A stretch of DNA of 64,000 nucleotides from NCBI GenBank assembly GCA_963969365.1, contig OZ017755.1:744001-808000 (forward strand), written 5' to 3'. The notes under the pieces are model-generated. The model did not search any database, was not told the origin of the DNA, and worked only from the letters and a program-made list of their open reading frames with translations. The DNA comes from Asterochloris sp. CNOR1 (taxonomy: Eukaryota > Chlorophyta > Trebouxiophyceae > Trebouxiales > Trebouxiaceae). Position 1 is the stretch's first letter. Each line of letters opens with the position of its first letter. The translations under genes were made by a program, and so were the position numbers. This document shows, in pieces, positions 1,080 through 61,939 of this stretch.

Positions 1080-3790
1080 GCGAGGTGGGTGATGAGCACT
1101 GAAAACCGTCGTGCGTCTCATGGCAGGCATGTGGGCTGGCTGCGTGTACTGGTAAACCACTGATGGCTACGAGCCGTAGAGGGATATCAATGTGTATCTC
1201 AGGCAGCTGGGCTTCCTGCTCTGATGGCCACACGTGTCTGCACGACCACAGGCTGCAAGCCCACAGGAACCCAGGTCACCCCTTTCCAGATGTGCATGCT
1301 GGGGTCTGCACGCTTTGGACCAGCACGCACATGCTGACCTGCATCAAGCCCGGTGCACTCAAGCTGATGGGGCAGGGCAGTGCTGACCATGCAGGTTAGC
1401 CATGCAGAGATAGCCTGCTGCAGCGCAGGCCAGCAGCTGCATTGGCTGCCACCAACAGGGGCCTCGGCATTACTCAGCCCACGCCTGGCCAGGTGGGTGA
1501 TCAGCAGTGCAGGCCCTCTTTGGTCTGGTTGCAGCAAAAGCCCATACAGGGCTGGGGCAAGGTGCACAATACTGGCCTGAATGATGGGCACTTCACCACA
1601 GCAGCTAACGCCTCCTGCAAAGCTCCTGCTCTGGTATGGTGAGGTCAATAGCGCATCTGCTTCATCTCCAGCGTTTGCAACATGGCTTTCTGGATCTGGA
1701 CCCACAGTGGCCTGCAGCTTGTGCCACCTGCTGCATCATGAAGCGGGTAGGCAAGCACACTGCTGTACAGCAATGGGCATGTTGCATGTCAGCAGCCCTG
1801 ATGAATCTGGTAGGCATATATGTTGCAGCCTGCTGGAGCCCTGCTGAGCCACAGCTTGACAGCTGCAGCCAGGACCCCATCATGTCGTAACATTGGCCCC
1901 TTGCACCTCTGCGTGAAGACCGTTCACATCCTTGCCAGTGCTTGCACCTGTCCCTGCATGAGCCAGGGCCAGGTCCAGACATCCTTCAAGACAGATCATC
2001 GTGTGCTCCTATATTCAACCACGCACCTGGACGCAACCCTGCAGGAGCAGGAGCCTGGGAAAGCCTGCCAAGTGTAACCCAGATGGCACCGCCTTCTTTG
2101 CAGGTGGCCCTGCAGGAGCAAGACTGTAGCAGGCCTGCCTGGCCCACAACTGACATTGAGCTTGCTGATGCTCTTGAGTCAAGGTGTCCCCGGCTGGACC
2201 AGAGTGCTGGCAGCTCTCTGCGCCAGCGACGCCTGCTGCCAGAGTCTGCCGCCATGAACTCTTGGGAATTGCTGTATGCCTGCAGGAGGAGCTGCACCAG
2301 GCCCAGGGCGGCACTGACGACGAGGCAGAGGGCCTCGATGCAAGCGATGCTGAGTATGAGGATTGTGATGAGGATGACGAGGAGGAGGCCCAGGAAGACA
2401 TGCTGAGGGTGGGCTAGGGGTGACTTGGAATTTTGGTTGCCAGCTAGTCACCATGCCCTGCGCTAAGTATCACATCAACTTGCCCTTCGTTCAGGTCAGT
2501 GGCCTGCCCTAGTGCACCCTGCCCAAGCCTCATGTGGGCTGTGGCTGCGAGACCTGGAGGGTGTAGAGCTGGAGGATACAACAGGCCAGCACAGGCCAGC
2601 TGCTGGCCCAGCTGTCAGCAACATGGGGCAGGTTGACTCTTTGCTGCTGCAGCAGGCTGATGACTGTCCTCAGATGTGGCTGCAGGACCTGGAGGATGAG
2701 GAGCTGGATGACGCTGCTGCCATCACCCTGGGGCCCAGCATCACTGAGTCCAAGCCTGGCGAGGTGGGTCATGATCAGTGCAGGCCCTAGCCACAACAGT
2801 GGTTATGCACAGCACACAGGCCTGGGTGGTAGGCACTGCACATCCTGCAGGTGGCAGTCAGGCTCCTGAAATAGCATGCAGTGCTGTGGAGCCTGACAGT
2901 ACCACAACAGCAGGCTTCAGCTGGCTATACATGATCAGCCACTGATCCTTGTGGTATGGCGACGTCGCCCACCACACGGGCTTCCTGCCTGTGGTTGCAG
3001 ATGTCAACTTGGCTTTGTGGATGGAGGCCTCTCAGTGGCCTTGCAGCTGCTGTCACCGCTGCATCGTGAAGCAGGTTGGCAAGTGCTTTTGCTGTGTAGC
3101 AATGTTGCACGTTGCATGTCAGCAGCCCAGAATGTTGAAAGCTGGTAGGAGTATGTACTGCAGCCTGCAGGAGTCCTAAGTGAACCAAACTTTGATAGCT
3201 GCAGCTCAACCTCATCATGTCTTATGACAGCAGCCCCCTGCACCTCTGCATGTTGCGCACTCATGTCCTTGCCAATGCTTGCACATGTCCCGGCATGAGC
3301 CGGGGCCAGGTCCAGGCATCCTGCAAGAAAACATATGGTTTGCGGCTACCTCTCAGCATCGCACCTGGAATCAACTCTGTAGGAGCAAGATCATCCTGAG
3401 AAGGGCAACATCTGCTGCCATGTCGCCCCACCTACTTTGCAGTTGACCCTGCAGGGGGAAGACTGCAGCAGGCTTGCCCGCCCTGCTGGCCACATCTCAC
3501 ATTCAGATTGCTGCTGTCCTCATGTCAAGGTGTCCCTGGCTGGCCCAGACTGCGGGCAGCTCTCCCGTCTGCGTAGACTCTGCTGCCAGAGACTGCTGCC
3601 ATGACCTCATTGTGGTTTGTTGTGTGCCTACGGGAGGAGCTGCACCAGGCTCAGGGCAGCACTGAGGACGAGGCAGAGGGCTCCGATGTGGACCCCACCA
3701 ATGATGAGGAGGTCGAGATTGATGAGGATGATGGGGCCCAGATGGTCATCCAGAGGGAGGCTCTGATGGTGGGCCAGGGGTCTGATGCAG
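1080..3790. repeat. 1.34-kb tandem duplication, two diverged units
   Basis: Two adjacent segments align over most of their length at a spacing of about 1.33-1.35 kb. Examples are the block starting near 1681 against the one near 3010, the CACCTCTGC block near 1903 against 3240, and the exon-like block at 2286 against 3632. Each unit includes a homologous acidic coding block beginning EELHQAQG (first unit) or REELHQAQG (second unit). In the first unit this block follows a CTGCAG acceptor; in the second the matching site reads CTACGG, so the acceptor is destroyed. Shorter similar pieces (GAGGTGGGTGAT-type donor contexts near 1081, 1491 and 2760) suggest more than one round of duplication. Confidence 0.7.
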
Positions 3791-6263: not shown

Positions 6264-6920
6264 TACTTGGCTCCCTGACCATCTTGTCTGAATGATCCTC
6301 TTGTCACATATCACCACACAGCAGAGCTAGCTCTGTACTTCTCTCCAGAGCTTGTGCTGTTGGGCGCTGTGTGCCATCAACTGTCCACACCATAGTCAGC
6401 AGTGAAGGTGAAAGGGGAGGAGGTGTGTTTTTCCCTTCCCCAAAGCTGCCTGCCTCATGCTCTGTGTAGCTCTTCTGGCCCTGCAGACCTCTATGTCCAC
6501 TGTGGACATTGATAATCAGGTAGAAGAAACCTTTGCAGATTCTCAGCCCTGGGAAGTCTGATCGCTTCTGCAATAGTTTGCCAGATCACTATCACTACTA
6601 GTTCTCTGGTCAGGAGCTGATGCAAGATGTAAAGACTGCCACCGACGTAAGCAGCACCAACAGCTGAACTTTTTGATTGACTGAAAATGACTTTTGTCGG
6701 TGCTGTGGTATGTTACAAGAGAGTTACTTGAATGTCAATGGGGAATCCCCACCAATTCAGGCATCTTCACACAGGAGTGCCAGTTCTGCAGACTCCTGCA
6801 GAGCTTGTGCTGTTGGGCGCTGTGACCCGTCTATTGTCCACATGTGACTCAGCCCCAGCTTCTTCTCCCCAGTCAGCAGGGCATCCAGGTTTCGCACAAG
6901 CAGCCCCACCAGGAGGTTTG
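6264..6920. repeat. Non-coding stretch with a decayed copy of the preceding terminal exon
   Basis: No gene is supported here. The segment from about 6432 to 6640 resembles the last exon of the upstream gene (about 6018-6240) at an offset near 415 bp: the CCCCAAA-CTGCCTG block, the CTGGCCCTGCAGACCTC block and the GA-ACCTTTGC block appear in the same order, but stop codons break the frame. A second echo, AGAGCTTGTGCTGTTGGGCG, occurs near 6348 and again near 6801, 453 bp later. I see no promoter motif or RNA gene. Confidence 0.6.
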
Positions 6921-12048: not shown

Positions 12049-14077
12049 CATGGAGCAGGAGGCTTGGGTGTCGACGCCCTCTGGCTCTGCACTGGTACCC
12101 CCACTTGCGCTGCCAGGCGCTGCCTGCTCCCGGTCCTGGTCACCAGTCCTGGTCATTTCAGTGCTGCTTGGCCTGCACAACACAGGCACCATTCAGCGGC
12201 AGGCCGACATTGCATGGTTGAGTGCCAGCAGCTGTGGGAGGCTTGCTGCACTGGTGAGCAGTCAGGCGTGCCCACAACCGGGGCCCAGCACTTCAGCTCA
12301 CCTTGGGTCGGCATTCAGCGCATCAGCCGCGCAGGAGGGGCCCTTGCTGGCACACAGCACCCCCTCCGGCGTGACCACCTCTGCTCCAGCAGCCTGACCA
12401 CCCGCCGGCGGCTGCCGCCTGGAGCTCCCACTGGCGCTGCCAGGCGCTGCCTGCTCCCGACTGGCACGGGTCTTGGTCCTCTCAGTGCTGCTCGGCCTGC
12501 ACAGCACGGGCATCATTCAGCGGCAGGCCAACTTTGCCTGATGGAGTGCCAGCAGCTGTGGGAGGATTGCTGCACTGGTGAGCAGTCAAGCTTGCAACTG
12601 GGGCCCAGCACTTCAGCTCACCTTGGATTGGCATTCAGCGCATCAGCCGGGCGGGTGGGGCCCTTGCTGGCACACAGCCCCCCTCCTGGCGTGACCACCT
12701 CTGCTCCAGCAGCCCGGCCACCCGCCGGCAGCTGCTGCCTGGAGCCCGCACTGGCGCTGCCAGACGCTGCCTGCTCCCGACTGGCACCAGTCCTGGTCCT
12801 CTCAATGCTGCTCGGCCTGCACAGCACGGACACCATCCAGCGGCAGGCCAACTTTGCATGATGGAGTGCCGGCAGCTGTGGGAGGTTTGGCACCATCTGG
12901 CGGCTGCACCTGCAGAGAGCCACCTGCATGCCACCTGCATGCTGAGGTCGACAGCAGGTTGATGCACCAGCAGAGGTACGGCCTGCAGGGAACAATCTGG
13001 GCACAAAGCTTGACTTGGCGGCAGCAAGATGCCGGTCACTTGCTGCGCAAGTGAGCTGGTCACCTCTACATGCAGTGGCCAGTGCAAGTGCTCTGCTTGG
13101 TCAGACAAACCAGCGTCACCCAACAAGCACTGCACCCACTGCCACGCACCTAATGCTGCTGGCGCCCCCGTGCAAGCAGTGAACCAAGACCTGCGCGGTG
13201 TCAATTGTCGATCTCACAGCTTTCCTGACGAGCAATTAAGGGTGCAGCTCACGCCCACAAATGGGGCCCAGCACTTCAGCTCACCTTACGTCAGCAATTG
13301 GCTTGTCAGTCAGGCGGGTGGAGCCCTTGCTGGCACGCAGCACCCGCTGTGCCCCAGCTACCTCTGCTCCAGCATCCTGCCCACCCGCTGACGGCTGCCG
13401 CGTGGAGCTCCCACTAGCACTGCCAGACGCTGCCTGCTCCCGACTGGCACGGGGCTTGGTCCTCACAATGCTGCTCGGCCTGCACAGCACAGGCACCGCT
13501 CAGCCGCAGGCCGACTCTGCATGGTGCAGTTCCAGCAGCTGTGGGAGGACTGGCACTGTCTGGTGCTTTGACCTGCAGAAGGCCACCTGCATATTGAGAT
13601 CGACAGCAGTACAATGCATCAGCGGAGGTCTGCCCTGCAGGGAACAGTCCGGGCCCAAAGCTTGACTTGGCGGCAGCAAGATGCTGGTCCCACCCAGCAG
13701 ATGTGAGCTGGTGTGCATGCTGAAGTGACCTGCTTCGTCAAACAAACCAGCACCACTCCACGAACACTGCCCCTACCGCCACACACCTGGCATTGCCGTG
13801 CCTGTGTGCAAGCAGCATAGCAAGACCTGCACGGTGTCACCATGCCGATCTCATGGCTTCCTTGATGAGCAGTCAAGCGTGCAGCTTCTGCTTGCAACTG
13901 AGGCCCAGCACTTCAGCTCACCTTGCGTCGGCATGCAGCTCGTCAGCCGGGCGGGTGGGGCCCTTGCTGGCACACAGCACCCCCTCTGGCGCGGCCACCT
14001 CGGCTCCGGCAGCCTGACCACCCTCTGGGCCCTGCGGCATGGAGCCCTTCTGTGCAGGCAAAGCTGGCCTCACACCC
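12049..14077 (-). repeat. Five-copy tandem array of a symmetric (phase 2-2) coding exon
   Basis: Minus-strand exons at 13922-14077, 13285-13479, 12622-12816, 12302-12496 and 12049-12172 are clear paralogues. The middle three are each exactly 195 bp. Each of those three starts after TGTGCAG, takes one base to complete a split codon and ends with two bases before GTGAGCTGAA. They are therefore in phase 2 on both sides and can be added or lost without breaking the frame. Each of the three encodes 65 residues rich in Ser, Ala, Gly and Arg with a shared core (PSSxxRTxxxASREQAAxGSA, later ASKG). The first copy (13922-14077, 156 bp) is shorter at its start, and the last (12049-12172) ends early at a different donor (CATG|GTGAGC). 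Flanking intron sequence is duplicated too: copies two and three in left-to-right order are 320 bp apart. Function unknown; the sequence looks disordered. It probably belongs to the kinase gene downstream. Confidence 0.75.
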
Positions 14078-15229: not shown

Positions 15230-18200
15230 TGCTGCAGGCACCTCCTCTCTCACATGGCTGCCAGCATATGCTCATGAGGGGAAGGGCTCTCACCTGCAGT
15301 GCCTGGGAATATGCGATTCGTCGCGCTGCAGCGACGGCCACTCGCACTGAGGTCTTGGGGAGCCACCAGATCAGCTGCAGAACCTGCACATGCATCAGCA
15401 GCATTGGCAGCTGCAGGAGGTGTTTCACAGACGTGCAAAGCAGCCAGCTGAGGGCCAGCGTGCCTCCAGGGCAGGCAGCCAGCAGGCAGGTGCCAGCAGC
15501 GTGCTCACACAGCCCAGCACCACCACCAGCAACAGCAGCTTTATGATGACAGCTGTCTGTCCACCCAAGCAGTTCAGAGAGCAGGATGCAACCCACAGAA
15601 CAGTAAAAATTCCGCAAAGCAGCAGCAACAGGCTGCCAACTCCAGATGTCACGCCTTTCAAGGCAGGCAGGGTGGAGGGGGGGCGAGCCAGACAGCAAGT
15701 GATCCAGAGGCAGACTTGACGCAGACACCAGCCGTCAAAAGATACCCAGAGACAGCCTGACCTGACGCCAGTGCTTGATGAGGATGCGCAACACATGGGC
15801 GGCCACACTGCCTGCCACCATCGCCAGCACGAGGGACACATTGTCGACCATGCATGCTGACAGCCAGGGGGCTGCATGGGCAACCAGACTGCTAAGCTTG
15901 TTGAGGTAGTTGGTCATGATTGGCGGTGGTGGGTCAGGCGTGGGTTGAGTGGCACTGCTGCTGCTGTGCCTGAAGCCCCATTTAGTCTGCAGGAGCTGCG
16001 TGGCGGCAGCCCCCAATGACTTCATGCAGCGGGTCACCTGCAGCAAATTGACATGTCATGAGCACAGGGTCAGGTGCATTGCGTGTTTGCAGCTGTCCAC
16101 AATTTATGGGCAGCACGCCAAACGCAGGCAGAACAGATTGATGGCAATGGCCAGCAGAGCAGTGTCACATAAGCTGCATGGTGGCATGCTTCCAGGATCT
16201 CCCATGCATCCAGCTAGCATATGCAGCAGATCATCTTCTGCGATTTCAGATGTGACAGGGCAGGCTGCAGATGGGTCAGCTTCAGCTGAAGCTGCTGCGA
16301 AGCTGCAGCGAAGCAGTGGAATAGGAGCAGTGATGCAGTCCCACTTCTGAAAGTCGTTCAGGTGCTGTTCATAAAGCAGTGCTGCAGGGGCCCCTTGCCT
16401 TGCTGGCATTTGCAGCGTGCCCGCACCTCGTTGCAGATTCCAGGCAGCTGAGCCTCAATGAAGCCGTTAATATTGGACAGAAACCGCTTCCGAATGGATC
16501 CTACTGTCTGCGTAAGCAGGAGCTGGGACGTCAGCAGGGCAGCACTTGCAAGTGCACGCGTGAGGTGGAGGTGCACCTCGAGCAAGTGCGCACTCTAGCC
16601 TTCAACGCAGGCACACTGCAGCCCTTCATGAGGTCTCTGCAGGAGGACTGCCTGATGGTGATATGCAGACTGTGAATGCACCTGTTTTTGAGGGGCACCC
16701 TCGTGGTGGCTGGCTTGTGCAGGCCCTGGCTCAGAGTGAGGGGCGCTGCCCTTACTGTGTCCGTAGTCCCACTCAGACAACAGGACCTGCATGGTGACAG
16801 CCCTCCAGGACTCCATGCAACAGACCACCTGCACGCATGGCAGATGAGATCGCATCAGCAGGGCGTTGTGCAAAGTCAGCTGAGCTGGATGGTGACAGCC
16901 CTGCAAGGCTCTAGGCAGCTGGCCGCCTGCAGTGCATGGCAGATGTTAAGGCACCAGCAGACTGCAGGCAACAGAACTCCAGGCAGCAGGCCACCTGCAG
17001 CCAAACGGATGTCAGGTCTTGAGCAGGGAGATGTAATGTCAGAGGGGCTGCACAATGGCTGGCCAAGACGCCATGCAACAGTGCCAACTGCAGCCAAGAT
17101 GCAGCTCTCAGCCTGAGCAGAGGGATGTTGCGCCACAGAAATGCATGATGACTGGCCTTCACGACATCATGCTACAGAGACATGCAAGCAGTCGTGATTG
17201 GAGGCAATGAGCATCAGGACAGGCAGCACGATGTATATTATCAGACAATGTCAGACAGGCTGCATGGTGGCAGCAGTTCAGGGCATTGCGCAGCAGGCAG
17301 GCTGCCGACCAGTCAGAATGGAGGCCATGAGCAGCAGAACAGACGGCAGCATGCCATGGCAAGCAGTGTTGTGGCATCCCATCAAGGTGCTGGACATGCA
17401 CATTGCGGGCAGCAAGTAACCTGCACTTGGCTGATGCTGCAGCACAGCCTCAGCTGGCAGGACCACAATTCAAAAGCTGTTTGATGCATGTGTCAGTCAG
17501 TTGCTCAGTCCATATGCTGCCTATGAAGCAGGGCTGCAGGGGGGCTTGCGTCGCCAGCAGATACCAGGGGGAATGCAGAGAGGAATGGACGTGGATGCAC
17601 AATGCCCGCACCTTGTTGCGCACTCCAGGCAGTTGAGGTCCAATGAAGCCACAGGTAGGGACAGACAGGCTTCAAAAGGAGTATGCTCCCTGCACAGGCA
17701 GCGACTGATATTCAGTGGCTCAGGCGGCTTGCATGAACACTTGTGAGCAGCACCTGCAGCAGGTGCCACCCCTGGCTCAGTACAGGCAATGTGGCAGTTG
17801 CTGGCTGCAGCAGAGTGCCATTCACAGGGGCCTTGCAGGTGGACTGCCGTCTTGCACCAGGCACACCTGTTCCTGTGGGTCATCTCCCTGGTTGCTGGCC
17901 TTGGCCGGCTCTGGGTCGGCTTCGGTGGTTGGGGACTGCTGGGTGAACCAGCGGGCAGCCCAGTAGGTAGACCAGCGGCCCAGGTGGCTGCCCATGGTGG
18001 GCATGTGGTCAGACAGCAGGGAGGGCGAGTCAGCCACCGCCTGCATGTGCACAAGTGCCCCTGATTGCACGTTCCAGGCAGTCGAGGTCCAATCGAGCCG
18101 CAGGTTGGGGAAGACAGGCTTAGAAAGGACTCTGCTGCCTGCACAGGCAGCAGCTGCTGGTCAATGGGTGAGGCGGCTTGCATGTACACTTGTGAGCAGC

Positions 18201-18640
18201 ACCTGCACAGCAAGTGCCGGCCTTGCCTCAGTGCAGGCAACCAGGCCAGTGCTGGCTGCAGCAGGGTCACATTCACAGGGGCCTTGCAGGTGGACTGCTG
18301 TGCTGCACCGGGCACACCTGTTCCTGTGGGTCATCTCCTTGGTTGCTGGCCTCTGCTGGCTCTGGATCAGCCTCAGTGGTTGGGGACTGCTGGGTAGACC
18401 AGTAGGTAGACCAGTAGGTAGACCAGCGGCCCAGGAGGCTGCCCATGGCGTGCACGTGGTCAGACAGCAGTGAGAGCCAGTCATTCACCGCCTGCGTGTG
18501 CAGATGTGACACAAGTAAGAGCTTCTGAAATGCAGGCATGCCTGACAGCAGGGCAAATGCCATGGCAGGGACCTGCTGTGTGTCGTGCCTGCTGGTGTGA
18601 GGCAGACAGGCATGGCAGCTTGATGCAAGCATCAGGAGGG
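15230..18640 (-). repeat. Array of diverged hydrophobic coding modules
   Basis: Minus-strand blocks near 18270-18630 and 17650-18070 are close copies: both encode WLSLLSDH- or SPSLLSDH-like helices, then a WSTYW segment and a Pro/Glu/Ala tail ending DDPQEQ before a GT donor. More distant relatives lie near 16595-16906 and 15735-16046. A linked motif, GxIGPQLPGxxN, recurs near 16440, 17625 and 18090. The 15.4-16.0 kb part also encodes likely membrane segments (AVIIKLLLLVVVLGCVSTLL and SLVLAMVAGSVAAHVLRILI). In the right-most copy a 12-bp unit is repeated three times (about 18402-18433), extending the WSTYWSTYWST tract. I infer repeated duplication of one- or two-exon modules; exon limits are uncertain. 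Confidence 0.5.
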
Positions 18641-22508: not shown

Positions 22509-25500
22509 ATGCCCATCAATCAGCTTCCCAAAGGGTACGGGTTCACCTCCCGTCAGCTCCCAGCCTTGCAGCTGCTGGCCCTCAGGGAGTGCATCCGCAG
22601 CCAGCGTAGCACTCGACTCCCTGCCTCGCGTTGCCTGGCACCCAGGAGGGACAGGCAGCGAGCAGCCACATCTGCACTGGCAGGTGCCACAATGGAGGCG
22701 CCCGCTGAGAAGCAGGCTGCCCACAAGAAGCAGAGCTATGCCAGCATGATGACAGGAGACGAGCTGGACGAAGAGTATGGCAACGACACTGCTGGGCAGC
22801 CCAAGGGCAGGAAGGGAGGTAAAAGCTGATGGGCGCTGTTAGTCTGCATGACAAATGCAGATGGAGATCAGCAACCAAAGGGCTCAGGCAAGAGGCAGGG
22901 TCCAGATTGGCAGCAGTGGCTTGCATGGCAACAAGGGTGTGGGCCAACACAAAGGGCATGGAGAGGAGCTGTCTTTGCAATTGCCATCCTGCCGGCCATG
23001 TTCCTCACTAGATGCAGGCCTGCAGCCCGCCCTCTCCACAAGCGAGGGCATTGATTTGCATTTCACCTGCGCCCCAGGCTCCTGCAGCCCAGGCAGAGCT
23101 AGGGAACACGCCCTGCCACTCTGTCAAAGCTAGCAACGGCAGCTGTACACTGTATCTCCGACCGGCATCTTCTTGCAGCCACCTCCTTGTCGTCTCCCCA
23201 GTGTTGTCTGCAAGCAGTAATCTGGGGATGCTGGCAAGCATGGTCAACTGCCAAGCTGTGAGGCTCACGTGTCTCCTGTGGGCATTACCTGCACCCCACC
23301 TCCCTATCAGGCCCCTGCGGCAGTGCCATATTGGGAGGGAGGGCTCTGACAGCTTCATGTTCCAAGCTCACCCACAGCCCGCCTTCCGGCTGCCGTGCAG
23401 GTATCATCCTGCACCCCACCTCCCTGCCAGGCCCCTACGGCACAGGCGAGATCGGGAAGGAGGCCTATCGCTTTGTGGACTGGCTGGTCAGCGCTGGCCA
23501 GCAAATCTGGCAGGTGCTTCCCCTCGTGCCCCCAGAGGAGCAGTTCTGGTCTCCTTACTCAGGTCAGCTCAGGACACACACAGGGGTCTGGCAGGGGTTG
23601 CCTCAAGTGGCCAAGGAGCACTTATGGTCCCTCTCCCGGGACCTTACACAGGGCTTTGTGTTCTTGGGCTGTTTGCTGGACAGCACCAGCATGCAGATTT
23701 AGCAGGTATTGCCACAAGTGCGCTCAGAAGGGTGCTTCTGGTCAGCAATTCTGTTTTCATACTCACTGCCACACGTATACATCCGTTTGGAGTCCAGAAT
23801 GTGTTGAAGCAGTCTAAGCGTAGCCCCAGAGGACTTTGTCTGTTGCTTGGCCTGCACTCTCCAGACATTTGCAACACTGACCATGAGGGGTCTTCTCAGC
23901 TGGGAACACATCTGGATGCACCTGCTTCATGAAGATGGGCAAGAGGGTGAGCCCTGCAAGCAACTCCAGCCTCTTTAGGCATTGAGACGCTGGCATCTCT
24001 GTACAGGCTGCCCGCTGCTCATTGCCTTCCTGTACAGGAGTGGCTGCTCTGCGTGGACCGCTCTGCCAATGACTTTGCTGCTGCTGTGCAACAAGGCTGG
24101 AGATTCTCTACAAGGATATGTTGGTCAGCGCTGACAATGAGCTGGTGGAGACATGCAACCCTGTGCCTGAGCGATAAGTGTGGCCTCACTGCTGTCATTG
24201 TGCAGGGCTGGACGCCTTGTGCAGGAGTCAACTGCTGATTGTCATTGGCAAGCTCATTTGACACCAATAAATGCTGCCATGTAGGCCTGGACGCTCTGTG
24301 CGGCAACACACTGCTGATTGCCATTGATGAGCTCATGGAAGAGGGCCTGCTGGACACGGCTGACAAGCCCAAGAAGCAGCCCATTCAGTCGGCAGTGTTT
24401 GAGGAGGTGAGTCTGCCTTTTATCCAGCGCTTGCTGGCTGCAGTTGTTTGTCAGGACTGGTGGGGTCAGGCCCATGGGGCAGCCTTCTGAGTCGGCATTG
24501 TCTGGAGAGGCAGGGCGCTTACATCTGATTCATTTCATCTGGGCTGGCCCGCAGAAAGCAAGCAGGTTGGCAAGACATCACAGTGATCAGTGTACCATCT
24601 GCCTGAGATGCGCCCTGACCGCCCATTTCAGCACAAACAGAGGCAGCAATGCCCTGTGCCTCCAGCTGCACTTCCAGCCTGTGCGCAAGCTCTGGGGAGC
24701 CCTCCAGCTCAGTGGCTCTGTGCTGGCAGCTGATTGTCAACATCTCACTGACATGGCTCTTGTTCCCTCTGTGTAGGTGGCTGCAGCAAAGAAGCCCCTG
24801 CTCAAGAAGGCAGCCGACAGGCTGCTCAATGACAGCAAGTTCAAGTCGCTGCGCAGGGAGATGGACGCTTTCCGTCAGGAGAATTCCTGGGTGGAGGACT
24901 CAGCCCTCTTCTTCTGCCTCATCAAATTCCAGGTGGGGTTCTGTGAAGACAGAGGCCTGGGAACGTTGCAAGCTGGGTTGCTTGCATCCTTGCCCTTGCC
25001 TTGCACGTGTCAAGGTGAGGCTCTGAACAGAATCTGACCTGGGACGTTGCTGAGCCATGCTGCAACCCTCCAGCGGCCACTCAATGTCTCAGCACCTGTC
25101 TTGTGCCCATTGCATGGATGTGTGGCCCCAGGAGGACACTGAGGAGAGCAGTGCTGACGCCGCCCCATCACAGAGGTCCCTGCAGCTGTTCAGTAGGACG
25201 ACACCCAGCATTTGGCTCGGATGCTATGGCTGTGCCTGAGCAGCCCCACTGCAGGGCAGCATGCATGCGCTAGCGACAGCAGCGTATCCTCTTCAGCCCT
25301 GGAAGCCACACAGGACCAGCATTGGGGGACGCTGCGCAAGTAGCAGCACCTGGCACCGGCACACACCTGAGGCCCCATGTCTGCCCTGCAGGAAGACACC
25401 AAGGACAGGGCCTGGTGGACATGGTCCGACGAAGCACTGCGCAAACGGGAGCCCCAGGCAGTGCAAAGAGCCACAGAGAGGCACAAGGATGACATCGAAC

Positions 25501-28500
25501 GCTTCATCGCGCTGCAGTTCCTCTTTGACCGCCAGTGGAAGGCAGTCAAGGTGAGAATTGTGGTGATGCAGAAGCTGCTGGGGTGCCCCTGGCAAGGTAA
25601 CTTGTAGAAGCCCAGCTATGTCTCCTGGAACTGGCAGCCCTACACCTGACCCATGAGTGCAACTACAGGTTCTGCCATTCTCAAGGCCCCTGACTAAGCC
25701 TGCTGCCCATGCCTGGTGGCCTGCGCTCATGCTCCTGTTTGTTGTATGGTGCTGACACGCACGAACGCACCAGGCCAGGTCCAGCTGCCACGCACTATGG
25801 GCCTGCACCCTGGGGGTACATGCCAGGCTACTGCTGGCTTCCAGGAAGTGCCCCTGGCTTGCATCCAGTGACAGTGCCGGCCTGCGCATCAAGGCTGCCA
25901 TGGTCCTCCTGGTTGCGTTCTTGTGCTCTAAGAATGGATGGTGCCAGCCACAGGCCTAGCAGTCAAGGCTACAGGCCATACATAACCCCTACATGCCCTC
26001 AGCAGACCTGCTGCCGGTCCAATACTGCCCTGCGCCTGAGGCCCGCACGCTTGGCTGCCGCACGCTCATTTCCTGAATGATCACTGACGCTGCAGGCATA
26101 CGCCAATGACCATGCTGTCAAGATTGTGGGAGACATGCCCATCTACGTGGGTGGCCAGTCCGCTGATGTATGGGCACACCAGGAGCTGTTTGAGCTGACT
26201 GAGACCAGCGCGCCCGCAATGGTGTCCGGTGTGCCGCCAGATGCCTTCAGCGAGACGGGACAACTGTGGGGAAGCCCCCTGTATGACTGGAAGGTGGGGC
26301 AGGCACATCAAGGGCAGCTGCTGATGGACTGCAGACTCAAGGCATCAACTACAGGGCAGCACCCCTGTATGACTGGGAGGTGGGCAGGCAGCTGTGAAGG
26401 ACTACAAGGCAGGCCCTGGCACGCTGCACATATTAGGCAGTAGCTCTGGGCAGACAAGGCTGAGGACCATTGCTGACTTTGCAGAGCACGCCTGGCTGGC
26501 CTGCGCTTGCAAAAGAGCGCCGCTGTCTGCATTGCTGCAGGCACGCATGGCTGAGGATTTTGCATGGCTGTAGCATGCAGTCTGCTGGCCTGTGCTGCTG
26601 CAGATGGAGCCAAGATGTCACTGCTTTCAACTGCTGCAGGCCCACAAGGCTGAGGACTTCAAGTGGTGGAGCCAGCGCCTAGGCCGGGCCTTCCAGCTGT
26701 ATGACGAGACCCGAGTAGACCACTTCAGAGGCTTTGCAGGTGGGCATCGCAGAAATCAATGATTTACAGGTTTGCGTTACATGCTGCAGCTTTCAGAGGT
26801 GTGCAGCAGGCAAGCACTTACGGGGCTGGCAGCAGCATGCTATGGGCCATGCATGTGCGCAGCTGCACCCTCACCTGGGCAAGGCTTGGACTGTGTGCAA
26901 CGAGCGTTATGATGCCTGTGGGTGGAAGGGCCTCTAAGCCCGCAGCTGCTGACTTGCCCGCACAGAAAGCATATCAGACTTGACCTGGAATCTTCTTGAT
27001 GTGGGTGTGAGAAAGCTTCAAAACTTTGCTGAAGTTGGCTTTTTGACACAGGTTACTGGGCTGTGGAGGCAGACGCAGAGACTGCTATGAACGGCGTTTG
27101 GAAGAAGGGGCCAAATATTGACCTCTTTGAGGCTCTTGAAAAGGTGAGCTGCAGACTGGTGCATCACATTGAGACATATAGATGGGTGAGGGGCATGTGC
27201 GCACAGGCTCTGCTGCAGGCCTGCTTCTACAAGTTGCTGGCTGCTCTACTGTCTCAATAGACCGCTGCTTCAATGCTCTGTGGACTGCCAGAGCAGCCAG
27301 CACCTGACAGGAGGCCCACTGGCAGTGCCCAGCCACATGCACCGCCCACACAGCTCCGCATACCGGCTTATATCCACGCATGATGACTGTAGAAGCTTGC
27401 TGTGTAACTGCACCTGCTGGGCAGATGCACTCATCCCCTGAGAGTACACTCGCAGTGCCATTGAGGCAGCCTCTGCATGATGCTGCTGTGGGTCAGGTGG
27501 CTCTTCCTGTGCAGCTGGTCTGGGCCACATCCCCTTCTGACCTCACATTAGCTGCACTGTCTCATGCTGACTGAAATTCAGCTGCCTGTGCAGAGGTCAG
27601 GTCCTCTCACCCTTGCAGAGGACATTGAGTCCTTCGCCCGGGACGCAACCCCAGTTCCATCCGGCACTGCCCATATGCACAGCACCAGACCTCAAGCTTG
27701 CTCACATCCGCTTGTGCAGAGGCTGGGCCACGTCCCCATCATTGCAGAGGACCTGGGAGTGATCACCAGCGACGTGAATGAGCTGCGCAAGGCCATTGGG
27801 GCTCCTGGCATGGTGGTGCTACAATTTGCCTGGGGCAGTGGGGCGCAGAACACCCACATCCCCCACAACCACTATGAGAACTCCATTTGCTACCCAGGCA
27901 AGTTTCAGAGGGCGTCAAAGTTCTTGCAGGAATGACACTCGAGTCTCTCTGCCTCTTCTACTGAGCCTGCTGTGCACCTGGCACGTGACTCTCAACTCCA
28001 AGCAGCCACCAAAAAAACAAGCGAGTTTGCTGGCTGTATGAGGCAACGTCCCATTCCCATTCTGCAGTCAGAGCCCAGTGCATTGGCCATGCTGCACAAG
28101 CTCATGCAGATGCAGACGCCATGCTGCTGCACATGCTGCAACCTGCCCAGCTATTCACACAGCATGTGGTCCTCTATAGTACCCATTTCGTATCACCCCT
28201 GCAACAGCCCATATCATGATCTTTGGTCAGCCTGGTGGCTGTGGCTGTCAGACTACAGCACCATTCATTGCTCAAGTTCAATTGCAGAGGATTGCACTGT
28301 GTGGCTGCTCTGCATCCAGCCATACTTCATCACCCCCACAAACGCAGGCACGCTGCTGCTGCACACGCCGCACAGCACCCAGCAATCTGTCCACTTGTGG
28401 TGTTTCTCCAACGCTTTTGACAGAGCCACGCTGCTGCTGCAGGCACCCACGACAATGAGACGGCTGTGGGCTGGTGGAGGGATAGCGCCACTGAGAAGGA

Positions 28501-29254
28501 TAAGTCGTACCTCAAGCGCTATCTGAACACCAGTGGGAAGGACATTGCTGGAGACTTCATCAGGGAGGCCTTTAAGTCTGTGTCCAAGTCCAGCATCGTC
28601 ATGATACAGGCAAGTGCCTTGGCTCATGCCCTAGCCGATGTGCTGGCGGGTGTGTGAATGTGGGGGACTCCAGGTCATCTGGTGGACAGGGCCTGACACA
28701 TGGTGAGTGAGCATTCATGTGGGACACTGGCGGCCTGGTGCCGCCCAGGCAGGGGTTGCATGTTCAGACAGAGCAGGAATGTTATAATGATGGCGAGCGC
28801 TCGTGAGGCTACCAAAGGCCTTGAAATTGTCTCAGCGTGTCTGGCGGGTAGCAGGGCAGGGCCTCCCAAGTATGGGCATTCCCTGCACGCCTCACCACCC
28901 TCAGGAGCAGTGCGCAGCTGCCTGATTCTGAGTGAATAGGCCAGTGCCTGCCACGCTCAAGCCCATCCTGTGCAGCAGACCCAGGTGGCCAAGCACCTCA
29001 AGCTGATGCTGGAATCAGCCCAGGCCGGTTCACAAGTCTTTCAGCCTAAAAGGAGCACCACTGATATGCAGGATGTCATGCGCCTGGACAACACTGCACG
29101 CATGAACTTTCCTGGCACCACCAAGGGCAACTGGTCTTGGCGCATTGGGGACTCCGACGTCTGGAGCAAGCTGAAGAAGGAGGCAAAGGAGCTCAAACAG
29201 CTTGCAACAGATTATGATCGCCTGCCATACCCTCCATCGCTGCACAAGCCTTAA
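22509..29254 (+). CDS. DPE1: 4-alpha-glucanotransferase (disproportionating enzyme 1, GH77), plastid type
   Basis: Transfers alpha-1,4-glucan segments between malto-oligosaccharides in starch metabolism. Exons: 22509-22818, 23401-23562, 24285-24406, 24777-24932, 25392-25550, 26096-26293, 26640-26739, 27052-27143, 27720-27897, 28443-28609, 29072-29254; all phases agree, giving 608 residues. The first ~75 residues are Arg-, Ser- and Ala-rich and transit-peptide-like. GH77 landmarks: ILHPTSLPGPYGTGEIG, CGNTLLI, IVGDMPIYVGGQSADVW, RVDHFRGFAG (nucleophile Asp), IIAEDLGVIT (acid/base Glu), THDNETAVGWW (third carboxylate), ARMNFPGTTKGNWSWR. All three catalytic carboxylates are present, so it should be active. 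The introns after exons 9 and 10 begin with GC (CAG|GCAAGT), the only way to keep PGTHDN and MIQDVM in frame. Several introns contain degenerate copies of adjacent exons. The start was chosen as the first ATG with a plausible transit peptide; an upstream exon is not excluded. Confidence 0.95.
23280..23345 (+). repeat. Degenerate copy of DPE1 exon 2 start
   Basis: Lies in intron 1, exactly 120 bp upstream of the true exon. From 23288 the sequence matches the exon from 23408 at 32 of 35 positions, the first 18 being identical. The copy stays in the same frame and still reads LHPTSLSGPCG against LHPTSLPGPYG. Confidence 0.85.
23588..23746 (+). repeat. Two degenerate copies of DPE1 exon 2 end
   Basis: The exon end from about 23507 (CTGGCAGGTGCTTCC...) is echoed at 23588 (offset 81 bp) and again at 23702 (offset 192 bp from the aligned exon base). 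The second copy matches at about 30 of 45 positions without gaps; both keep the TGGTC block near the exon end. Neither is a usable exon by itself. Confidence 0.65.
24206..24262 (+). repeat. Degenerate copy of DPE1 exon 3 with acceptor and stop
   Basis: Matches the true exon (from 24285) at 39 of 54 positions, 79 bp upstream. It is preceded by TTGTGCAG, a plausible acceptor, and stays in frame for 17 codons (LDALCRSQLLIVIGKLI against LDALCGNTLLIAIDELM), then reaches TGA. It could act as a decoy or poison exon if spliced in. Confidence 0.75.
26360..26392 (+). repeat. Degenerate copy of DPE1 exon 6 end and donor
   Basis: The block at 26362 repeats the exon end and 5' splice site at 26277 with 22 of 24 bases identical (the shared 15-mer ends CTGTATGACTGG). 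Because it includes the donor-like AGGTGGG, the copy carries a second potential 5' splice site. Confidence 0.75.
26533..26572 (+). repeat. Degenerate copy of DPE1 exon 7 start
   Basis: TGCTGCAGGC followed by GGCTGAGGA repeats the acceptor and first codons of the true exon (26632 onward) 99 bp upstream. A weaker third version lies about 60 bp further upstream near 26470. Confidence 0.6.
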
Positions 29255-29621: not shown

Positions 29622-31502
29622 CTAAGATGTCAAATAGGCGTCAGCTGAAGCTTGCTGCCGCTCATAGATGGGTAGCTTTGCAGGCTTGGGCCTTCGAGTG
29701 AGGCGCCCGCTCTCAGTCACATGCAAGTCCTCAGCAATACTTGCAGCATGCCCTCGTTCCAAGAGTTGCTGCTGAATCATGTCCACAAACAGTTTATGCC
29801 TGCAGTCGTGCACATAACTTCAAATTGGCTGGCGCTGTGCCAGGCAGCATCCCTTGCACTGAACATGCTCTGGCAGGAGCAGCCATGAGGCTCAAGCCAG
29901 ACAAATGTGATGTGCATCAGTGAATAAAGCTTGCGACAGAGCTGAATCAAAAGGCCACTGCTCAAGCAGAGGACCCCTGCCACCCTTTCCACAGGCATCA
30001 GGGTAGACCGATGGCTGCACTCACCATCTTAGGTCTGCTGTGAGCTCTGGGTGAAAGGCAGTGGCTAGCAGGTGCTTCTCCCTGACTGCCACCATCACGC
30101 TCTGCCTGCCACTTGCTGCACTCTGCTCAGCTGGCGTCAGGTGGTACTCAGCCAACACCTCCACTGCTGGCCCTGCCTCAATGACTGCAGGTGCCCTGCA
30201 GGAGTGCAGCCCTGCAGTGTGAGGACGGCAGGGCAACAGGGTGCACAGGACGGTCTTGCCTTGGAGGCAGCAGGCGCTCTGCTGGGTTGCAGGTGCCCAC
30301 ACCAGGAGAGGGCTGCTGTGCATCATTGATGGTTCTGCCTCAATGGCAGTAGACGCTATGCAGGTGTGGAGGGCTGGATCGAGGCAATTGCCTGTAACAG
30401 CGGAGAAGATGCAGGCTGTGCGGGAGTCTGACCAAAGGCTGGGCAGAGTGGGATGCTGGACGCATGGTTACCAAGGAGACATTCCTGCCAGGCCAGTTGT
30501 GCAGGTTGCTTGTACGGCAGGCAGAAGTTGTGCTCAGATGGAAGGGCTGGCCTGCATTGAATCCACATTGCCATGAAATCACCATGCTTGAGCCCGCGTG
30601 AGGTGCAGTCCACAGAACAGTGTGGTGAGCACTCGGTGTAAGCTCTGGCTTCATGTGATGAACATCATCCTGCACCTGCCCTGCTCCTGCCCCATCTCAG
30701 GAACAGTGCGCCAAATGGGACAGTCAGCCTCTGGCTGAGCCAGCCCGTCACCTGATGAACATCGCCCTGAAGTCGCCCTGCTCGGGGCCGATCTCAGGCA
30801 GACAGTCCGGCGGTGTGAGGTCAACCTCAAAGCTGTGGATCTGGGCTCCAAAGAAGTTTCTGTGCACGGTGCAGTCAAGACCTCCTAGCAGCGCCTGGCC
30901 GCCCTGTTTGACTCCTGCAGCAGGTGCAGTTGGTTAACAACACAGCAGGTACTTTGTCTAAGTAGGGCATGCAGTAGTTGAGGTGCAGCCTTGCAGGCGG
31001 CGCTGGCATCTCCAGCAGGTTCCAGGCTGCCCACAGTCAGAGCCTGACGAGACATCCACGTGGCAGGTGAAAGCCGCTCAATCGACTGCTCACACAACAT
31101 GTGCAGAGCGCTGCCAGAGACCACCCCCAGCCGGCTTGCAAGCAAGCTGCAGGCCTCCTGATCAAACTCCGTCAGCCCACCACTGTAAGTGTGCTCAAGC
31201 CCACCTGTCGCCCTGTCTGCCAGGAAGATGAGGCCTGCGCAGGTGCCCCACACGGGCTTGTGCTGGGCAGCATGGGCCTTCAGCTCTGGTATGAGGCCCC
31301 ATCGCTCAGCCACCAGGGCCATGGTGGTGCTCTCGCCGCCAGGGATGATCAAGCCATCTGCCTTGTGCAACTGCTCCTTGGTTCTGACCTCAAAGGCCTC
31401 CACTCCGGGTATACTGAGGAGAGTGGCAACATGCTCTGAAAAAGAGCCCTGCAGGGCCAGCACTCCCACCCTGATGGGACGCTCAGCATCCGCTTGTGTC
31501 AT
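29622..31502 (-). CDS. PDX2: Pyridoxal 5'-phosphate synthase glutaminase subunit
   Basis: Class I glutamine amidotransferase that releases ammonia from glutamine for PDX1 in vitamin B6 synthesis. Exons: 31205-31502, 30752-30914, 30025-30195 and 29622-29799, joining in phases 1, 2 and 2 to give 269 residues, close to plant PDX2 length. Visible family motifs: [13 protein letters not shown] near the N terminus, the PGGESTTM loop, the nucleophile Cys in [22 protein letters not shown], and His and Glu of the catalytic triad in FHPELT. The start is the first true ATG upstream of the conserved core, giving a leader of about nine residues; an earlier in-frame TTG at 31526 is not a likely start. No clear targeting peptide, in agreement with the cytosolic location known for plant PDX2. 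The intron after exon 2 contains a copy of that exon's end. It is head to head with the next gene. Confidence 0.95.
30657..30705 (-). repeat. Degenerate copy of PDX2 exon 2 end
   Basis: On the plus strand GATGAACATC... at 30657 aligns with 30754, offset 97 bp, at 35 of 45 positions. The copy lies in the intron just after the exon and includes the donor end. Confidence 0.8.
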
Positions 31503-39191: not shown

Positions 39192-42100
39192 TTAACCGTG
39201 ACGAAGACCTGCCACTGTTGCCTTGACTGCACGATTTGGCACTATAGTAGTGGTGGTGAGGGTCAAGCCTGTCATTGGAGACACAGGGTTGCGGCTGAGC
39301 CACTCCCTCAGTGCAGATGACTCGTAGGTATGCCCATCCTCTGCCAGCAGCACAGGATCAACAAACAGCTCCTGCAGCAAGCAGGCCTCACGTCAGACAG
39401 CGACGTACCTGTTGCAGGTCAAATAGCGGGCCAAATATTAGAACACTTGACTCAACCATACGTGCATGGCACAAGAATGCAATGACGAGCAAATGCTGCT
39501 GGATAGTCAGGTGAAACACCCAGCACTCACCATGGTGATGGGGCAGCAGAAGTCGTCCAGATTGAGCTCTGAGTCTGCTGCAGCTGCCCCTGCCTGCTGA
39601 TGCAGAGGCACAGAGGCATGGACATTGCTTGGCGCGGGGCTGCCGCTGGCGGGGGCAGCCTCCTGCCTGGGTTGCTGCATCTCTCTGGGCACCGGTGGCG
39701 GTGGCTCAGCAGACCACCCTGCCCCCTTTCTGGGGCGCGGCTTGGGCTTGGGCTTGCTGAGGGGCAGCTCCCCCATCTGCAACGACGTGGCGCCCATGGC
39801 CACAGCAGCAGCAGGGACCGCCACTGGGGCAGGGGCAGGCGCAGCCCCTGCTGCTGCTGCTGCCGACGGTCCCCGCACTATCCCCCTGCCCCCTGGTGCC
39901 CAAGCTGGGGATGCAGCAGCACCCACTGTCACAGATCTGCCTGGCCATGGCTGGCCCTGACCCTGCCCCTGCCCTCTGCCACCGCTGTCACCCTGGCCTC
40001 TGCGGCCGCGCCAAGGCTCCACAGCCTGTCCTGCTGCCGCAGCCACAGAGCTTTCAGAACTGCATGCCCATGCCAAACCTGCCTGTGATGGGCCTGCTTC
40101 AGAGTAGAGCTTGCTGCTGCTGCCCTCACGTACAGCCGCACGTATGCTGTCTGCCTGCAGGTGGACTGGGCTGGGCCCTGCCCCACGGTTCTTGCGCGGC
40201 CTGGGCTTCACAGATTGGAAAGGCTGCTGGGGCTCCTCCAGCAGCTGCTGTGCTACACAGTCAGTGTGGCTTGAAGAGGCAGCTGCCTCCTCCATCGGAA
40301 GCTGCGCCCTGGCGACTGAGGCATGCCCATTGCCTCGCGTGAAGCTATCTGCCCTGCCTGCCTGGGCAGGCACCTCCCCTGTCTGAGGGCGAGCGCCGTG
40401 CCGCCCATTGGCGTGCTGCTGCAGGGGCCCATCCTGCACAAGCAAATGGACTCTCAGAGTCAGCAACTGGGAGGTTGACTGTGCACTGCCTGCCACTTGC
40501 AGTGCTCAAGATGAGGCAGCATGCCTCATGCACACAGCTGGCAACAAGATCAAGCACAGGACGGATGCAAACAGACAGCACTCACCACTGCCGCACCATC
40601 AAAGCCAGGAGGCTTGGGCTTGCTGATTGCTCCTTGCATGCGGGGGGTGGGCTGCATGGGCAATGGGCCAAATGATATGAGATGGCAATCTGTGATGCAT
40701 GGCACTGCCCTCTAGGCCCCTTTGCCAGCAGCATGCTGCTGCTGCAACCAAAACATCGGTGCCAGAAATGACGTTGTGTCTTCACATACATCAAGCTCAC
40801 TTTCTCAAGGTGCAGCGCGCCTGCAGGCAGCCAGCCGCTGCCGACTGTTGCCGGGCCAGGCCCCAGTGACTGAGCTGCAGCCACCTCGCGTGCCTGAGCT
40901 GAGGCAGACATGTCAGCAGCTGCCTTGCTGGTTGCTGCTTGCATGCGGGGGGTTGGCTGCATGGGCAACAGAGAGAATGATTTGAGATGGCATTCTATGA
41001 TGCATGACATTGCCCTTAAGCCCCTTTGCCAGCAGTAGGCAGCTGCTGCAACCAAAACACCGATGCCAGAGATGGTGTGCCTTTAAATACATTACGCTCA
41101 CTTTCTGGGGGTGCAGCGCGCCTGCAGGCGGCCAGCCGCCGCCGCCTACTGCTGGGCCAGGCCCCAGTGACTGAGCTGCAGCCACCTCGCGCGCCTGAGC
41201 TGAGGCAGACATGGCAGCTGCTGCCGCCCCAGCTTCATCCCCGCCAGACTGCCGCCTGCCCGCCTTGGGAGTGTCTGCAATGGGGCCCTGCTGCACTGGC
41301 GGGGGAGTCTTCACAGCAACCACGGGTGGCTGCTGGGGGACCACTGGCGAGGCCGTGGCTTGCAGCTGCTGCTGGGCTGCAGGGGCAGCCCTGCCAGTGC
41401 ACGGCGTGGCAGGGGCCGCAGGCTTTGCAGCTGTCGCAGACTGCTGCTGATGCGCAGCGGGGGCAGCCTTGGCAGCTGCCTCAGCAGGCTGCTCATGGAC
41501 TGGCTGCGCAGGCTTGCCGCCACCACCCTGCTTGGCAGGCGGGGTGCCATTGGCAGCACTCTGCACCTGCGCAGCCCTGGCAGCGCCCTCAGAGGCCTGC
41601 TGCTGAACCGCCAAGCTGCTCTTGCCATTGCTGGGCTTGGCTGTAGCATTGCTGACGACGTTTGCACCCTTTGTCTGCCTGCTGTCAGCCTTGTCCCCGC
41701 CAGGCAAGCCCTGCCTTGCAGCAGCAGGGTCAGCCTGAGCCGGCTGAGCAGCCTTGGCTGCAGCATGCTGACCCTGCTTTGCAGCGGGAGACTCAGCATT
41801 GGCAGCAACAGGCTCCTCCTCCGGCAGAGCTGCCAGGGGCTCCGCCCTGGCTGCTGCTCGCCCCTTTGTCTGACCCTGCTTCTTGGTGCGCCTGTCAGCC
41901 TGAACAGGAGCCACCTTGGGCTCCCTGCTGACTGGCACCTCAGCTGCAGGGGACCCCGCTACAGCAGAAGGCTCTGGCGCCTTTGGCACAGGTGCATCTG
42001 GTGCTGGTGCTGGCGCCTGCTGCTCTGGGCTGAGTTTGAGTGCCTTGGGCTCTGGGGCCTTGAGTGCTGGCACCTGCTGCTGCTTCTTTGCACTGGGCTT

Positions 42101-60405: not shown

Positions 60406-61939
60406 ATGCCCAGAGTGTCATGCGGAGGCTGTAAATGTGATACGCATAGGCAATTTTCAGTCCTGGCCTCTCGAAACGGTAGCAAAAAGCCCAAGCCACT
60501 ACAAGTACCGTACATTGAAGTGACACCCCCTCTGCTGAAACCTCCCAAAAGGAGGCGTGTGACAGGTATGACCTGCTGTTAGCATCTTGTTCTAGCTATC
60601 AATTATGCATCTCAGGATAAGCCTTTGTGCTGCAGCTGTGGAGCAACACCGTAGTGACATTGACAGTAGCAGCACGTTCCACTCACAGAGGGGCAGCAAG
60701 ATTCTGCTGGTGGCCGCATGCGCCCTCATCCGGGGAGACAAGGTGCTGTGTGCACAGCGACCTGCTGGGAAGCGCAGAGGAGGTGAGCCCTGGCTTTTCA
60801 TGTATGGCAGGACAACTCGAAAAAGACTGCTGTGCCAGTAACCTCACCAGTGACCCGATGCCCATGGTGCATGTCACACGTGCTGGGACCCAGCTGCTGA
60901 GGTCATGAAGGGTCAAGACGCTTTGCCACAATATGCTGAGTTCATTGCAGCACCCAGCAGTCTGCAAATCAGCCCTGCAGGGGACGGGCCTGCCCTGCTT
61001 TGCAGGGACCTGCACCTCACCCTCCTCATCACGAATCCCTCTGCACAGGTGGTACGCTTGTTTGGGCAGCAGGACAGCCCAGGCAATTCTTGAAGCCCAG
61101 GCCACCCAGAGCCCTGCCTGCTGCTGCAGGGTAGCGGGTGCTTCACATTTTGCAAGGGCATACTGCCAAGGCCCATGCACATTGCAGGGCAGTGGGAGTT
61201 TCCTGGCGGCAAGATCGAAAGGAAAGAGAATCCTGAGGAAGCCCTGTCTCGGGAGCTGAGGGAAGAGCTGGGCATCACCACTGAGGTCAAGGACCTGCTA
61301 CCCTTGACATTTGCCTCTATGAGCGATGGCGAGGAGGGCAGTCGGCACCTACTCATGCCTCTGTATGGTGAGCATCATCTTGTGAAAGCTGTTGCTGCAG
61401 GATGTGCCTGCAACACCCTGATGTTTGCCTCGTGCTTGCAGCCAGCACTAAGTTCCATCCAAGGTGACCAGCTTGACGTGCGTGTGCCCTGCACACTCTG
61501 CACTGGAGGCCTGCTCTTCTTTGCAACGAGGAAGGCAGCAGGCATCTGTTCCTTTAGGGTGACTTGCCTGCCACAACATGCACAGTCAGACCTTCTAAGG
61601 GCCTCCTCAGGAGCTCCTTGCCGCTATCTGGACATCAGCACTTGTCTCAGCAGGCTGTTGTTGCTTTGCATTGCTGGCACCCAGCAACTGTGCTTCATGC
61701 GGGGTATGCCCAGAACGTTGCATGCCCCTTCATCTCCTATGCAGCATTGCATGTTTCCAGGACTTTTGCATGTCTGCCCTGCAGTTTGCCGGCGCTGGGG
61801 AAATGAGCCAAGAGGACTTGAGAATCAGGCACTGCGCTGGGAGACGGCAGACACCCTGCCTGAACTGAATTGGGTGAACGCAGACCAGCCTCTAATACAT
61901 CGAGTGCAGTGTGTCCTTCGTGGAGAGCTGCTTCCCTAA
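60406..61939 (+). CDS. Nudix hydrolase, MutT-like (probable 8-oxo-dGTP or related nucleotide pyrophosphatase)
   Basis: Exons 60406-60565, 60636-60782, 61188-61367 and 61785-61939 all join in phase 1, giving 213 residues. Exon 2 opens the fold (ILLVAACALIRGDKVLCAQR). Exon 3 holds a complete Nudix box (G-x5-E-x7-REL-x-EE-x-GI) preceded by WEFPGGK, the MutT signature that binds metal and cleaves a pyrophosphate bond. Exon 4 encodes the C-terminal half (LRWETADTLPELNWVNADQP), where LNWVNAD matches the conserved end of MutT proteins. The ~50-residue N-terminal extension includes KPPKRRR, possibly for nuclear or organelle targeting. A sanitising role for oxidised nucleotides is the usual inference; exact substrate unknown. 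Confidence 0.9.

Follow-up and report, generated by a model that had tools for sequence, protein, structure and literature searches.

Why should an intron carry a worn copy of the exon beside it? The question is raised by the gene for the plastid 4-alpha-glucanotransferase DPE1 in the green alga Asterochloris sp. CNOR1, several exons of which have a recognisable degenerate copy, here termed an exon echo, in a neighbouring intron. DPE1 lies on the forward strand at 22509..29254 of a 64,000-nucleotide stretch (the window, to which all positions below refer; bases 744001-808000 of contig 10 in a 56.4-Mb genome of 21 contigs). The origin of intron sequence is poorly known because intron sequence fades fast, and a preliminary description of the window had proposed that introns are built from degenerate tandem copies of the adjacent exon. 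The analysis reported here confirms and generalises the observation, and supports the original interpretation in part. The echoes are probably what is left of direct duplications that were short and local, most likely tandem in type and ~70-300 bp long, and that occurred genome-wide in coding and non-coding DNA. They would thus belong to a known mutation class, present at a possibly unusual density, and would represent neither a novel type of intron nor a novel type of gene.

Echoes of DPE1 exons in adjacent introns

The rebuilt DPE1 model comprises 11 exons (22509-22818, 23401-23562, 24285-24406, 24777-24932, 25392-25550, 26096-26293, 26640-26739, 27052-27143, 27720-27897, 28443-28609 and 29072-29254), with frames consistent throughout, AG at the 3' end of all ten introns, and donors that are GT in eight introns and GC in two (introns 9 and 10). 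Residues 77-599 of the protein match the chloroplast DPE1 in PDB (E 3.7e-163), and the start codon in exon 1 is a guess. This plant-type plastid enzyme agrees with a green-algal genome, as does an EF-Tu frame of 419 aa on contig 21, which may be organellar. The exon predictor applied to the wider sample departs from this model in three respects: exon 4 starts at 24787, the last exon starts at 28976, and exon 8 is left out. As a separate observation, introns 9 and 10 begin with GCAAGT (27898 and 28610), and GC donors are common, at ~14% of 178 predicted donors.

Exons were compared with their adjacent introns (20 comparisons), with 300 equal-length windows elsewhere and the reverse-complemented intron serving as nulls. 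For exons 2, 3, 6 and 7 the adjacent intron holds a degenerate copy on the same strand, with scores of 59, 40, 34 and 28 that none of the 300 null windows reached in any of the four cases, against 17, 20, 17 and 15 for the reverse-complemented introns. The echo of exon 2 (23408-23466) lies in intron 1 at 23288..23345 (offset 120 bp, 81% identity), with the acceptor AG not in register, and that of the exon 3 start and acceptor (24280-24336) lies in intron 2 at 24201..24257 (offset 79 bp, 75% identity), with the AG kept. Intron 6 holds two: a copy of the end and donor of exon 6 (26261-26305) at 26346..26390 (offset 85 bp, 85% identity), with the GT kept, and a copy of the acceptor and start of exon 7 (26632-26659) at 26533..26560 (offset 99 bp, 86% identity). 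All four are on the forward strand.

Exons 9 and 10 had initially been listed as probable further cases. Both sides of exon 9 give marginal scores (26 and 22, p 0.043 each), with an upstream-side reverse complement that scores 30, and exon 10 has no echo support on either side against the 300 null windows (p 0.41 and 0.38). The downstream side of exon 3 passes weakly (score 26, reverse complement 14, null maximum 25), and that of exon 2, which passes the null-window test at 28, is not counted as an echo because its own reverse complement scores 27. Chance or compositional similarity between introns and exons may account for such unremarkable cases as exons 9 and 10; as the source of the echoes at large it is highly improbable, being refuted for the four main DPE1 echoes and contradicted by the reverse-complement, distant and other-flank controls.

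Short-range direct repeats across the sampled genome

The same comparison was extended to 51 exons (102 sides) chosen elsewhere in the genome by Pfam match alone, with six DPE1 loci excluded; since some of these exons are neighbours within one gene, they are not all independent. An echo of the exon itself (score of at least 26) was found on 17 of the 102 sides, compared with 0 of 102 reverse complements and 1.8 echoes expected from the flanks of other exons. An exon finder was trained on the 51 Pfam exons and DPE1 and then on its own predictions, and 174 introns bounded by predicted exons, including the ten of DPE1, were used for tests of intron ends. A copy of the upstream exon's end was detected in 20 of them and a copy of the downstream exon's start in 17 (score of at least 24), with 1.5 expected each. 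The likeness of an exon to its own intron is higher than to other introns, the comparison on which the preliminary description had staked its observation, and the observation therefore stands.

Short-range direct repeats are common, and inverted ones rare, across the 244 kb of sampled genome (loci L009-L026 and the window). Comparison of the window with itself yielded 26 direct repeats, all at most 2 kb apart, versus 2 inverted ones. A set of 24 pieces, each 10 kb long, was compared next; 18 came from separate contigs, at one fixed position, and the remainder made up the initial 60 kb of the window. Matches of at least 38 bits within a piece numbered 65 direct versus 3 inverted, and 52 versus 2 at 42 bits. 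Consecutive 190-bp tiles had a match (score of at least 28) on 195 of 2394 sides, compared with 18 for the reverse complement and 28 for distant controls. Dispersal of an introner or transposon-like family was also considered and rejected, matches between the 24 pieces being rare (1 versus 54 within-piece matches at 42 bits, 12 versus 68 at 38 bits; no genome-wide family search was made). The excess of direct repeats, together with the 20 and 17 of 174 intron ends, upholds the proposal that short local duplications involving exon-intron borders recur in the sampled parts of this genome and lengthen introns.

No particular spacing characterises these repeats. Shared 8-mers on the same strand reach 1.25-3.1 times background at 10-500 bp, and this excess falls, noisily, from ~10 bp to ~1.5 kb, while inverted 8-mers stay near background (0.93-1.26). 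The Basic Local Alignment Search Tool returned no repeats at offsets below 50 bp, where k-mers and Tandem Repeats Finder (TRF) do reveal them. Echo offsets in the sample range from 79 to 452 bp (30 pairs, 25 of them under 260 bp). Because the k-mer excess spans this whole range and decays, the spacing of 79-120 bp that had been thought typical describes the four DPE1 echoes and does not apply generally.

Anatomy and divergence of the echoes

In 27 of 30 exon-edge pairs the copied part adjoins whichever exon end is turned towards the echo; two rows of this set come from a 451-bp tandem duplication, and several exons contribute both of their sides. The median gap is 11.5 bp on the facing side and 120 bp on the other, a placement that exceeds uniform expectation (Kolmogorov-Smirnov p 1.7e-6). 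Where matches reach the border, weak similarity runs on into the intron (0.605 versus 0.516 in the matched comparison; n 13, p 2e-4), and because similarity crosses the exon border in this way, the copied material seems to have been DNA and not spliced RNA. The splice dinucleotide is in register at 8 of 19 borders; the claim that copies often include the splice site is borne out at some borders and fails at others. Sites retained in this way, such as those near 24206 and 26379, are potential decoys.

Differences between exon and echo fall at all three codon positions (mismatch 0.168, 0.184 and 0.248 at positions 1, 2 and 3; 36 pairs pooled), the transition/transversion ratio is 0.91-1.19 over four pair classes, and exonic CpG appears as TpG or CpA in the echo at 31 of 64 sites, compared with 20 of 219 for a GpC control. 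Since differences occur at all codon positions, transitions and transversions are near parity and many CpG sites are lost, the echoes are largely unconstrained, drifting copies. Neither the mismatches pooled over the 36 pairs nor the 8 of 19 splice dinucleotides point to a second copy kept as an exon, as in mutually exclusive exons, and single exceptions are possible. As a side observation, CpG is strongly depleted throughout the 244-kb sample (observed/expected 0.34 in non-coding and 0.48 in predicted coding DNA, with TpG at 1.74 in non-coding DNA), a pattern that resembles heavily CpG-methylated genomes.

Few pairs exceed 90% identity, for which reason hypermutation resembling repeat-induced point mutation was considered; it was rejected on the transition/transversion ratio, as nearly all differences would then be C-T or G-A. 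In the identity histogram none of 62 pairs of at least 35 bp reaches 90%. Nevertheless, a strong claim that young copies are missing was dropped, because 3 of 16 TRF arrays with a period of at least 30 have 97-100% identity and an ungapped scan gave 17 clusters at 90% or above, several of them pieces of one array. What is left is a weak deficit of young copies (3 of 65 versus ~22% expected, p 0.0004 at 20%; the three are TRF-derived, from a separate list) and an apparent excess of old copies over young ones.

The preliminary description had also suggested that new introns arise through duplication of AGGT-bearing exon pieces. This is a described model: cases are known from fission yeast and from Drosophila (PMC2891723), and potato provides a variant that crosses the border (PMC4974935). 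The 174 introns show no excess of the corresponding signatures: likeness of exon end to intron end and of exon start to intron start was found in 3 and 2 introns at a score of at least 20 (2.2 expected each), in 2 and 0 at a score of 22 (0.7 expected), and in none at 24. Moreover, the offset lies within 0.9-1.1 of the intron length in 0 of 21 pairs in defined introns; the introns that contain the echoes are longer. Intron birth by this route is extremely improbable as the origin of the echoes.

Amount of repeated sequence and preference for exons

Detectable direct repeats whose copies lie at most 1 kb apart occupy 4.0-5.3% of non-coding bases and 5.1-6.6% of those predicted as coding, with inverted repeats at or below 0.1%; in the DPE1 introns they amount to 213 of 4919 bp. 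The supposition that exon copies are the dominant content of these introns is thus not supported. Nor are repeats specific to exons, since at least one echo was found for 37 of 226 exons and for 186 of 1500 length-matched non-coding segments (odds ratio 1.38, p 0.11), though a count of pairs at offsets of 60-400 bp gives an exon/non-coding rate that is 2.2 times the non-coding/non-coding rate at score 30 (95% 1.43-3.37) and 3.8 times at score 38 (95% 1.95-6.72). Pairs that are coding in both copies number 4 or 5 after deduplication at scores 30-38, or 5 or 6 at offsets of 40-400 bp and scores 28-38. The exon finder calls just 18% of the sample coding, so some 'non-coding' pairs may contain missed exons. 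The exon bias is therefore modest and its size depends on the statistic, the segment test being not significant and the pair test significant.

An exon-specific process, in which breakpoints fall preferentially at splice borders or a function as decoy sites or spare exons preserves the echoes, would be in keeping with the pair ratios, which exceed the ~1.3-1.7-fold enrichment that a model of constrained exon copies yields from legibility at a constant birth rate. Nevertheless, when the simulated copies have an age of 0.2-0.3 the enrichment rises to 1.8-14 or 8-70 fold, depending on the indel rate, with no preference for exons built in, so that a preference beyond their legibility is possible but not required. 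The segment-level odds ratio, the divergence at all codon positions and the splice dinucleotides retained at fewer than half of the borders further argue against such a process, which is considered improbable.

Tandem duplications or spaced copies

The favoured explanation is as follows. A short direct duplication would arise locally, in coding and non-coding DNA alike; where the duplicated unit extends across an exon border, the gene would remain functional through its outer splice sites, one exon copy would stay under purifying selection, and the other would become intron and drift. An exon-intron pair would consequently diverge more slowly than a pair of two drifting copies, which would make exon echoes the most readable. 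Each duplication would lengthen an existing intron and create none, and most copies would by now be eroded, remaining legible if exon constraint still acts on one of the two. Tandem-type duplication is indicated by the direct orientation, the edge preference, the crossing of borders and the existence of some near-complete units, with a repeat length of at least 0.7 of the offset in 14 of 77 pairs. The two copies would originally have abutted, and they may have arisen when nicks or breaks close to each other were repaired, a route that has been proposed in rice and human. Simulated tandem copies with an age of 0.2-0.3 substitutions per site give roughly the observed ratios, identities and near/far gaps, with no single age fitting all and with parameters that were chosen by the author and unfitted.

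Several results weigh against tandem duplication. The median ratio of repeat length to offset is low, at 0.29 for exon/non-coding pairs, 0.42 for non-coding pairs and 0.35 for all 64 pairs. In a planted-stretch control, with the matched stretch set into other background, the remainder of the unit contributes next to nothing (mean z 0.25, Wilcoxon p 0.038; 5 of 64 pairs at p of at most 0.04 versus 4.9 expected). Extension past the match goes above the 95% null for 9 of the 64 pairs, where 6.2 are expected, and residual similarity is found beyond the unit as well (p 0.008). The exon stretch between match and border is barely raised in similarity (0.556 versus 0.515; n 17, p 0.036), and far-side similarity is not raised by matched fraction (0.539 versus 0.530, p 0.31), with p 0.021 by score. 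Full-unit alignments of the four DPE1 echoes are convincing by eye, support that the planted-stretch control takes away; one value in the full-unit null for exon 7 is as high as 89, presumably owing to a genuine tandem repeat. A tandem process running at a constant rate predicts ratios of 0.66-0.98 and an exon enrichment of ~1.3-1.7, neither of which fits, and an excess of old events must therefore be assumed. The extension tests give weak and partly contrary signals and, judging by simulation, appear to have little power when the copies are old.

The main rival is a spaced-copy mechanism. It holds that a piece of ~30-70 bp was copied and inserted in the same orientation 50-200 bp away, by template switching or templated repair, and that no abutting unit ever existed. 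Repeats about one third as long as their offset, unit remainders without detectable similarity and short pairs of fairly high identity, such as 2345-2391/2482-2528 in L010 (89% over 47 bp, offset 137), are all as this mechanism would have them. It agrees less well with the scarcity of inverted copies, the strong bias of the copies towards the exon edge on the echo's side and the near-complete tandem units, and its simulation at a constant rate gives 87-89% identity compared with ~80% observed. Insertion of spaced copies is accordingly regarded as rather unlikely, and old tandem-type duplication is preferred.

Other loci in the window

Echoes outside DPE1 had been reported for three further genes. 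Two of these were recovered: in the 'first gene', 2675-2711 of a predicted exon at 2653-2763 is echoed at 2540..2576 on the forward strand (offset 135 bp, 84% identity), and in PDX2, on the reverse strand, 30753-30798 of the exon at 30752-30914 (a SNO family match, E 1.4e-29) is echoed at 30656..30701 (offset 97 bp, 78%). For the third, a U-box domain was not found in the scanned part of the predicted exons. A segment at 6018-6121 that overlaps a predicted exon (6072-6263) has a forward-strand copy at 6433..6536 (offset 415 bp, 75%).

Complete tandem duplications are present as well, at 40619..41225 (301 bp x 2, 86%), 17596..18508 (451 bp x 2, 83-84%, both copies partly predicted coding) and 12092..12889 (320 bp x 2.5, 89%, non-coding according to the predictor). 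Besides these, the region 12087-14047 contains nested direct repeats with offsets of ~327, 648, 663, 983, 1300 and 1310 bp; 1678-2463 and 3005-3822 form an 825-bp direct duplication at an offset of 1.3 kb (73% identity), with two predicted exons that are acidic and alike; and a young 96-bp tandem repeat (98% identical) lies at 59613-59806 within a predicted coding Gly/Ala-rich frame. A predicted exon at 61130-61367 has a NUDIX domain (E 9e-13).

Relation to known systems

Close direct repeats in eukaryotic chromosomes were reportedly treated in older work by Achaz and colleagues, and Nourmohammad and Laessig are said to be the authors of a study of local duplication in fly regulatory modules. 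Exon echoes as a component of introns were not named in the titles and abstract openings listed in a literature search, and such a report may still exist.

The closest parallel is with rice, in which tandem duplications are described as the commonest insertions, enriched at 50-200 bp (PMC7971508, which cites Vaughn and Bennetzen 2014 and Schiml 2016 on short tandem duplications from patch repair). As presented there, the rice duplications share with the Asterochloris repeats the direct orientation, a genome-wide occurrence and an origin mostly not due to transposable elements, and possibly also a 50-200 bp length class with a longer tail. They differ in that the Asterochloris copies are mostly old and eroded, have near-complete units in the minority and come from one genome rather than from polymorphisms. 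Fill-in by Pol alpha-primase at breaks, reported to make small tandem duplications in mammalian cells (PMC8355091), is a possible route to short direct tandem copies here. In fly regulatory modules a same-strand similarity excess falling with distance was read as local duplication (PMC3188502); the decay is alike, whereas the range given for fly is ~70 bp and that in Asterochloris extends to ~1.5 kb. The same source states that no evidence for frequent local duplication was obtained in yeast, in contrast to the local duplication seen in this probably unicellular alga.

The presence of exon copies in neighbouring introns recalls tandem exon duplication (PMC9013439), a survey described as seeking functional mutually exclusive exons, whereas the Asterochloris copies are for the most part incomplete exon ends that drift. 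The share of exonic bases that have a copy of at least 80% identity is put there at ~2% in human, 0.08% in fly and 0.06% in worm; the corresponding values for Asterochloris, obtained by a different method, are 1.9% (653 of 34,936) in 18 arbitrary loci and 4.0% (1781 of 44,855) when the window is included. Intron gain by tandem duplication (PMC4974935, PMC2891723) likewise has a parallel here, since the potato case involves duplication across an intron-exon border; unlike in that system, no new intron was formed in Asterochloris.

Implications

Exon echoes call for caution in gene finding and in homology searches, as intronic copies can mimic weak extra exons; the first run of the exon predictor returned some echoes as low-score exons. 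For the alga itself, it is conceivable, if doubtful, that intron growth is driven to a leading extent by local direct duplication, now or in a burst long ago, and at a density well above that in fly and worm; about one tenth of intron ends would then still carry a readable copy of their own exon, and most older copies would have faded from view. Because exons serve as preserved reference copies, exon echoes can serve as a clock for local duplication within introns and also as its census. Such an echo count is applicable to any genome, and would tell whether local duplication, not transposons, fed the intron growth of a lineage.

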